Positions 54,043 through 59,537 of a DNA stretch of 64,000 nt are shown one piece after another. The notes under the pieces were generated by a model. That model was not told the origin of the DNA. It was given only the letters and a program-made list of their open reading frames with translations, and ran no database searches. The DNA is from Mycoplana azooxidifex. GTDB lineage: Bacteria > Pseudomonadota > Alphaproteobacteria > Rhizobiales > Rhizobiaceae. A program made the position numbers and the translations under genes. Every line of letters begins with the position of its first letter. The first letter of the stretch is position 1. Where the stretch lies: positions 124,001 to 188,000 of the forward strand of contig NZ_JACIEE010000001.1 of assembly GCF_014196765.1 (NCBI RefSeq). Direction: 5' to 3'.

Positions 54043-54135
54043 CGCACGCCGCACCGTTGCCGACGGAGCGCTCGCATGGCTGGTCTGCGCGGGCGCCTCT
54101 TGATTTTCGGGCCGTCTGTTGCGATATCGGGGGAA

Positions 54136-54207
54136 GGCAGACGACTGCCGCCGCTGAAAATCGGCGGTGACGACCGCGGGGACGGCCCCGCTCCTTTCAA
54201 ATGGAGC
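54136..54207 (+). promoter_or_regulatory. Guanidine-II (mini-ykkC) riboswitch
   Basis: Two hairpins carry the diagnostic ACGR loops: P1 GGCAG-ACGA-CTGCC (54136-54149) and P2 GCGGGG-ACGG-CCCCGC (54176-54191), 26 bases apart. GCTCC (54190-54194), which shares GC with P2, can instead pair with GGAGC (54203-54207), the ribosome site of gdx. Guanidine binding to the two loops should hold P2 closed and free the site. The target, a Gdx-type exporter, is the classic one for this class. Confidence 0.85.
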
Positions 54208-54212
54208 AGGAC

Positions 54213-54527
54213 ATGTCCTGGACTTTGCTCGTACTCGCCGGCCTCTTTGAAATCGGCTGGGCGATTGGCCTGAAATACACCGAAGGCTTCACCAGACCGC
54301 TGCCCACTGCGCTGACCGTCGGCGCGATGGTGATCAGCATCGCCCTTCTCGGCCTTGCCGTCCGCCACCTGCCGATGGGGACCGCCTATGCCATCTGGAC
54401 CGGCATCGGCACGGTCGGCACCGTCATCCTCGGCATCGTGCTCTTCGCCGAGCCGGTCACGGCCCTGCGCCTCGGCTGCATCGCCCTGATCGTCACCGGC
54501 ATCATGGGCCTGAAGTTCGCGGCCTGA
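54213..54527 (+). CDS. gdx: Guanidinium exporter, SMR family
   Basis: This 104-residue, four-helix SMR protein (formerly SugE) exchanges guanidinium for protons. The essential E13 is in LFEIGWAIG, and GTAYAIWTGIGTVG forms the helix-3 dimer contact. The riboswitch context separates it from the multidrug EmrE branch. ATG 54213 is set by GGAG six bases upstream; ATG 54201 lies within that site. It is convergent with the DoxX gene, seven bases apart. Confidence 0.93.
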   Translation: MSWTLLVLAGLFEIGWAIGLKYTEGFTRPLPTALTVGAMVISIALLGLAVRHLPMGTAYAIWTGIGTVGTVILGIVLFAEPVTALRLGCIALIVTGIMGLKFAA

Positions 54528-59269: not shown

Positions 59270-59380
59270 CGTTTGGGCCGGTGGAATGGACGACATGACG
59301 GCAGGCGACAAATATTTGTTCAGCCGCGACGCTTCGCTCTTGCCAAATTCCGGCCGACGCATTTATGTGGCGAAGACCTC

Positions 59381-59537
59381 GCTGGGAGAAACCGGTTTCG
59401 AACCGGTGCCGAAGGAGCAACCGCCCCCGGAAACTCTCAGGCAAAAGGACCAGCAAGGTGCCGACAGGACTCTGGAGAGTGGCGTTCACGCGCCCGCCGA
59501 AGGGATAACAATCTCAGGCGACAAGGACAGAGGGGGC
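59381..59537 (+). promoter_or_regulatory. Tandem glycine riboswitch
   Basis: Two successive aptamers are visible. The first has GCTGGGAGA, GCCGAAGGAGCAA, and ACTCTCAGGCAAAAGGAC (to about 59450). The second has GGACTCTGGAGAG, CGCCGAAGGGATAAC, and TCTCAGGCGACAAGGACAG (to about 59531). These are the conserved cores of the gcvT-type element. It precedes gcvT directly and should switch the gcvTHP operon on when glycine is plentiful. Confidence 0.95.

Follow-up and report, generated by a model that had tools for sequence, protein, structure and literature searches.

A probable three-hairpin guanidine-II riboswitch with a covarying linker hairpin upstream of gdx in Mycoplana azooxidifex

The gdx leader and its target gene

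The leader of the gdx gene in the window (the whole 64,000-nucleotide stretch of Mycoplana azooxidifex DNA analyzed here) is probably a three-hairpin guanidine-II riboswitch, which would act as a translational ON switch with a predicted OFF fold. What appears to be new is a covarying hairpin in the linker between the two ACGR hairpins, together with a systematic miss of this form by the standard covariance model. A conserved variant in rhizobial bacteria thus goes unreported by the current Rfam model, and guanidine regulons there are under-called. The three-hairpin form also provides a naturally occurring case in which the influence of linker structure on loop kissing and cooperativity could be studied in the smallest of the guanidine riboswitches.

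Riboswitches of the guanidine-II class bind two guanidinium molecules through a loop-loop contact. An earlier note on this DNA had proposed such a riboswitch before gdx, and comparison supported both the class and the target, with two ACGR hairpins followed by a SugE-type gene; the positions that it gave for P1, P2, and GCUCC/GGAGC are exact as read from the sequence. The leader shares with the class (mini-ykkC, RF01068) two G-C-closed ACGR hairpins before a gdx/sugE ribosome site, but it differs in its covarying linker hairpin, in the AG-ACGR-CU form of P1, and in a score below the Rfam gathering threshold. The features, in window coordinates, are as follows.

54100-54105, plus strand: -35-like TTGATT of an inferred promoter; motif common in three-hairpin leaders
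54123-54128, plus strand: -10-like GATATC, 17 nt after the -35-like element; position relative to P1 common in leaders
54136-54149, plus strand: P1, GGCAG-ACGA-CUGCC, ACGA loop, 5 bp; read from the sequence, with outer pairs covarying in 51 leaders
54150-54168, plus strand: linker hairpin, 54150-54157 with 54161-54168; two-sided changes and RNAalifold
54164-54177, plus strand: GCGGT-GACG-ACCGC, extra hairpin of the earlier note; judged outside the switch
54169-54175, plus strand: spacer of 7 nt from the linker hairpin to P2; length near-constant in relatives
54176-54191, plus strand: P2, GCGGGG-ACGG-CCCCGC, ACGG loop, 6 bp; read from the sequence, with pairing in 99.7% of cells across the 51 leaders
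54177-54221, plus strand: predicted OFF hairpin, 54177-54188 with 54209-54221, enclosing GCUCC:GGAGC; minimum-energy fold of 54134-54230, dependent on the ends chosen
54190-54194, plus strand: GCUCC, complementary to the ribosome site; predicted to pair with 54203-54207
54203-54207, plus strand: GGAGC, including the gdx ribosome site, GGAG lying 6 nt before the ATG at 54213; conserved in relatives
54213-54527, plus strand: gdx/sugE, a 104-residue SMR exporter; NCBIfam SugE model, Pfam PF00893, and solved relatives

The distance from P1 to P2 is 26 nt, within the range of 7 to 40 nt given for the flexible linker of the class in the accessible part of PMC7544219. GCUCC begins with the two bases that end P2, and GGAG follows the end of P2 at 11 nt, with the SugE-type gene after it. 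The gdx protein was found in 45 of 101 relatives (E 1e-12) and in 108 of 297 family genomes (E 1e-36), and the scan of named genomes took the best 80 of 584 confirmed loci. The comparison used 200 gdx leaders, 193 of them distinct over the last 110 nt; of the distinct leaders, 147 have two G-ACGR-C hairpins with stems of 4 bp or more, 22 have one, and 24 have none, and some of the 22 show by eye a second hairpin with a mismatch. Because 147 of 193 leaders carry both hairpins and the stretch 54125-54235 folds better than 200 of 200 dinucleotide shuffles (z = −3.9), the observation of two hairpins is above chance. By sequence comparison, the guanidine-II identity of the leader is well supported.

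The gdx product scored 127.1 bits against NCBIfam NF008512 (SugE; cut-off 126), the sole one of 21 NCBIfam matches to exceed its own cut-off, the other 20 being below theirs; by this score, the protein is of the SugE/Gdx type rather than the Qac or EmrE type of SMR proteins. It also matched Pfam PF00893, and its nearest solved chains were 6wk5 (with 6wk8 and others), which we take to be Gdx-Clo, and 8vxu. The product is a probable guanidine exporter. Its start is most likely at 54213; an alternative start at 54201 was rejected, as it overlaps the ribosome site and has no ATG in leaders L010-L014. A DoxX-family gene (PF07681; 54535-54927, minus strand), which also has a below-cut-off match to a copper-RiPP maturation family, is convergent with gdx.

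A promoter-like pair, TTG-N16..18-NATA, was present upstream of P1 in 47 of 52 three-hairpin leaders, compared with 1.2% of shuffled regions, and in 43 of the 47 the -10 element ended 6 to 8 nt before P1. We infer that transcription starts at about 54134-54136, at the foot of P1. If the promoter-like pair is used, such a start would leave the RNA without a 5' strand for a P0 helix.

Conservation of the linker hairpin

The earlier note overlooked a covarying hairpin between P1 and P2. Leaders resembling that of the window combine a P1 of the form AG-ACGR-CU with a long linker; those of named source come from Shinella, Ensifer, Sinorhizobium, Rhizobium, and Pararhizobium, and others from further Rhizobiales, and the three-hairpin form looks lineage-specific. 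Four Mesorhizobium leaders (L046, L051, L058, and L061) have the AG-type P1 with a short linker. Selecting leaders whose P1 loop is preceded by AG and whose two loops are separated by 34 nt or more, a rule that fixes the two loop-adjacent pairs of P1, gave 51 leaders with distinct aptamers. A linker hairpin of 4 to 12 bp is predicted in 50 of these, L035 being the single exception; it adjoins a 5-bp P1 in 44 of the 50, and the spacer to the 6-bp P2 is 7 nt long in 37 and 6 to 8 nt in 47. Against dinucleotide shuffles, AG-type linkers, short ones included (n = 56), had a mean z of −2.35 with 39 at or below the 5% level, whereas linkers of the other type (n = 91) had a mean z of −0.33 with nine at or below that level.

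The pairing of the linker arms was then assessed in a test anchored on P1 and P2 alone. At the best register, 80% of the arm cells were paired (median over registers, 38%), and swapping the 3' arms between species reduced this value to 45% (maximum 57%), with none of 2000 permutations reaching the observed 80%. Leaving out the window's own genus again gave 80%. The seven own-genus linkers alone, too few as a set, gave 86% against 78% when permuted, and 65 of 2000 permutations were as high. In a MAFFT alignment of the 51 leaders built without structure (A2), RNAalifold recovered, unprompted, P1, four basal pairs of the linker hairpin, and P2. In the counted structure, two-sided changes occurred at all eight linker pairs, and 76.3% of linker cells were paired; the whole structure was 89.8% paired against 35.8 to 49.5% for slid versions, which are the only control for shared ancestry. 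Long linkers of the other type (15 distinct) showed no clear register, the best reaching 0.62 on nine of them, and permuted sets were as high in 61 of 2000 trials. Within this mixed set, five gdx leaders from Pseudomonas and Stutzerimonas (L079, L081, L083, L086, and L105) have a linker hairpin near P1, and hairpins in the linker may have had more than one origin. A literature search by titles and passages, covering papers other than the founding ones of the class, found no mention of a linker hairpin or third stem in guanidine-II RNAs.

The earlier note had instead pointed to an extra hairpin at 54164-54177 that overlaps the 5' side of P2. It is present as letters, but its conservation is not supported. 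Its five pairs are formed in 48.2% of cells in the 51 aligned leaders, compared with 43.5 to 49.4% when slid 3' and 23.3 to 26.5% when slid 5', and its 5' side is part of the linker hairpin. Its covariation score (0.173) exceeded those of the slid versions (at most 0.104) and of 500 of 500 shuffles, mostly owing to one of the five pairs. Its probability was 0.0 in folds from the likely transcript start and approximately 0.4 in folds begun at 54120. Despite the covariation score, we rejected it as a part of the switch on the basis of the 48.2% pairing and the zero probability from the likely start.

The earlier note had staked its reading on a covariance-model match above threshold, and none was present: a permissive RF01068 search gave 54133-54190 at 21.9 bits, with 10 extra nucleotides in the linker, against a gathering score of 32, which is operational rather than class-defining. 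In the note's own terms, this result formally counts against it. At the gathering threshold, Rfam reported one glycine riboswitch (59373-59462, plus strand, 68 bits) and one tRNA in the 64-kb window and no RF01068. The linker of the RF01068 model is unpaired and has 14 positions. None of 20 three-hairpin loci (20 of the 51 were given) reached the gathering score, whereas 17 of 20 short-linker gdx leaders (20 of the 91, chosen for short linkers) passed, with L020, L031, and L096 failing; linker length and linker structure vary together in this comparison. Because all 20 three-hairpin gdx leaders fail alike, the sub-threshold score reflects the model more than the site. An RF01068 search of the 101 relatives at E 0.001 with stricter filters gave 37 places, which did not include the gdx leader of any of the seven own-genus genomes (G000-G006).

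Rejection by Rfam also speaks for a different kind of RNA, namely, a related sugE-associated element that senses another ligand or a protein partner rather than guanidine. GGAM-5, one of six sugE-associated motifs, is the possible candidate: according to the accessible part of PMC7736828, it occurs in Alpha- and Betaproteobacteria, mostly before sugE, and has neither reported guanidine binding nor an obvious expression platform. Our comparison with GGAM-5 is by description only, and the two may overlap. We regard such a non-guanidine RNA as very improbable here, since the guanidine-II pocket depends on both ACGR loops and none of the 51 leaders departs from ACG in either (selection required both loops), and other gdx leaders pass RF01068 at the same alignable position.

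A model built from alignment A2 (R1) gave 65.4 bits at the window site, and the next place in the genome scored 22.6; because the window is in the training set, these scores show specificity rather than independent discovery. R1 matched in 33 of the 297 family genomes; a gdx place adjoins 32 of the 33 matches, most of which are training rows. The place in G158 is in a genome with no gdx place listed. Across the class, R1 at E 0.001 with stricter filters matched in one of 289 genomes, that of M. azooxidifex alone.

Predicted switching and the role of the linker hairpin

Folds were computed for RNA alone, in the absence of ligand and tertiary contacts. The minimum-energy fold of 54134-54230 keeps P1 and the linker hairpin but lacks P2 (probability 0.05-0.07). 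GCUCC:GGAGC pairs with a probability of 0.93 to 1.0, nested in a stem that covers the start codon and in which 54177-54188 (the 5' side of P2, its loop, and the start of its 3' side) is paired with 54209-54221 (the start-codon region). The state with P1 and P2 lies 1.7 kcal/mol above this minimum; the gap is 0 with the 3' end at 54221 and 1.3 to 2.5 for the other longer ends tried. In folds from 54120, P2 had a probability of 0.42 to 0.63 and the linker stem mostly approximately 0.59, and the minimum-energy fold of 54125-54235 has P1, the linker hairpin, and P2. In 46 of 52 leaders folded from the likely start, P2 formed with a probability of less than 0.5.

Over the 51 leaders, the ribosome site was predicted to be paired at 0.87 when folding was free, at 0.66 with P1 and P2 enforced, and at 0.94 with the two outer pairs of P2 blocked. 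The opening of the ribosome site could therefore be partial, since the site is still 0.66 paired with P2 enforced. Exclusive pairing of P2 and the ribosome-site strand, the competition proposed in the earlier note, is predicted, but the two-base overlap that it named is too narrow a description, as most of P2 is absorbed into the predicted OFF state. Competition through the two shared bases alone was rejected: with the full P2, a 3-bp UCC/GGA remnant leaves the site at that same 0.66. Pairing of the 3' side of P1 with the ribosome-site region was also set aside, being seen by eye in some leaders and not kept in others. A translational ON switch as such would be in line with the comparison and with these predicted folds, which depend on the ends chosen.

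When only the bases separating P2 from the ribosome site were shuffled, free site pairing in 49 three-hairpin leaders fell from 0.87 to 0.61, whereas in 87 other leaders the values were 0.71 and 0.71; the strand immediately following P2 is thus a feature of the three-hairpin form. For P2 itself, the probability in 50 three-hairpin leaders (two long-tailed ones being dropped from this control) was 0.15, rising to 0.39 with early codons shuffled and to 0.64 with the tail shuffled; the values in the 87 other leaders were 0.31, 0.44, and 0.60, respectively. Because both groups trend alike, the predicted OFF fold appears to be encoded mostly by the tail and is not restricted to the three-hairpin form. 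Two three-hairpin leaders, L167 and L180, carry one more long hairpin, placed after P2 and before the ribosome site.

In the scheme that we propose, the RNA would consist of P1, a linker hairpin folded in both states, the 7-nt spacer, and P2. Without ligand, P2 is predicted to be open, with its 5' side on the start-codon region and GCUCC on GGAGC, a pairing that would hide both the ribosome site and the start codon. By analogy with the class, guanidinium would be bound as the two loops kiss, holding P2 closed; the last two bases of P2 and its 5' side would then leave the OFF hairpin, and gdx would be translated. In the weakest part of the scheme, the linker hairpin would fold away surplus linker and stop the GC-rich linker from mispairing, and its base, with the spacer, would bridge P1 to P2. 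As a tentative extension, the linker hairpin and the near-fixed spacer might set the geometry of the P1-P2 kiss, with a platform that takes up P2 and the start codon and with a cooperativity and threshold of its own, a form overlooked as the model rejects it.

The leader might instead be an ordinary guanidine-II riboswitch in which the linker hairpin only fills space, with no effect on sensing or switching. This reading is possible but somewhat doubtful. Many relatives do without such a hairpin, few of the other-type linkers (nine of 91) folding better than 95% of their shuffles; its length varies from 4 to 12 bp; and the linker of the class is called flexible in PMC7544219 and poorly conserved in PMC9561414, in the parts of these papers that were accessible. 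However, a neutral insertion need not show two-sided changes at eight of eight pairs or a near-constant position and spacer.

Switching of the kind put forward in the earlier note has already been proposed for the class, as models for Gloeobacter violaceus, Escherichia coli, and Pseudomonas aeruginosa are published; guanidine biology is reviewed in PMC12186494, likewise accessible in part. For G. violaceus, the proposed ON switch relies on a putative stem-loop that would overlap both P2 and the ribosome site and could not coexist with the folded riboswitch; its extended linker of 14 nt has no hairpin reported in the accessible part of the paper (PMC5486947), and the predicted OFF fold in the window differs in also including the start codon. 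For P. aeruginosa, the accessible part of PMC9561414 describes ligand-dependent translation and guanidine-dependent ribosome loading, with a P0 helix and an anti-SD modelled with the 5' flank and a "poorly conserved" linker. The P. aeruginosa riboswitch is a translational ON switch, as the one in the window is predicted to be, but the masking strand in the window would follow P2 on its 3' side, and a 5' flank is not expected. For E. coli, the anti-SD is placed within the linker (PMC9094411, accessible part).

The last two models suggest that the ribosome site in the window, too, could be hidden by a linker strand or by a P0 helix of the 5' and 3' flanks rather than by the strand 3' of P2. We consider this arrangement unlikely, because its own hairpin occupies most of the linker here, the linker has no CUCC, the inferred transcript begins at P1, and GCUCC is predicted to pair with the ribosome site at the high probability given above.

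Other guanidine-II matches in the genome and its relatives

Two further places in the M. azooxidifex genome scored above the RF01068 cut-off. One (G000:C15:30171-30215, L001, minus strand, 38.3 bits) lies before a gene for ATP synthase subunit a; the genome has two PF00119 genes, of which this is one. Similar matches in atpB leaders occur in the own-genus genomes G001, G003, and G006 (L233, L234, and L235), with P1 differing by matched changes. The ORF after the atpB-like gene resembles, by eye, a D-Ala-D-Ala ligase and not atpE, and it would be unusual for a stand-alone subunit a to be linked to guanidine.

The other place (G000:C4:5758-5804, L002/L212, minus strand, 36.6 bits) is directly before an ORF of PF05232, the chlorhexidine efflux transporter family, which we take to be the PACE family; similar loci are L213 and L215-L226. 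A search, judged by titles, found no paper linking a guanidine riboswitch with chlorhexidine, the PACE family, or the transmembrane pair. PF05232 homologues were found at 21 places in 19 of the 101 relatives, and within 170 nt upstream there were two ACGR hairpins at 12 places, one with another by eye at two, and none at seven. A PF05232-type gene adjoins 12 of the 37 RF01068 places in the relatives, and PACE-type transporters could be guanidine exporters.
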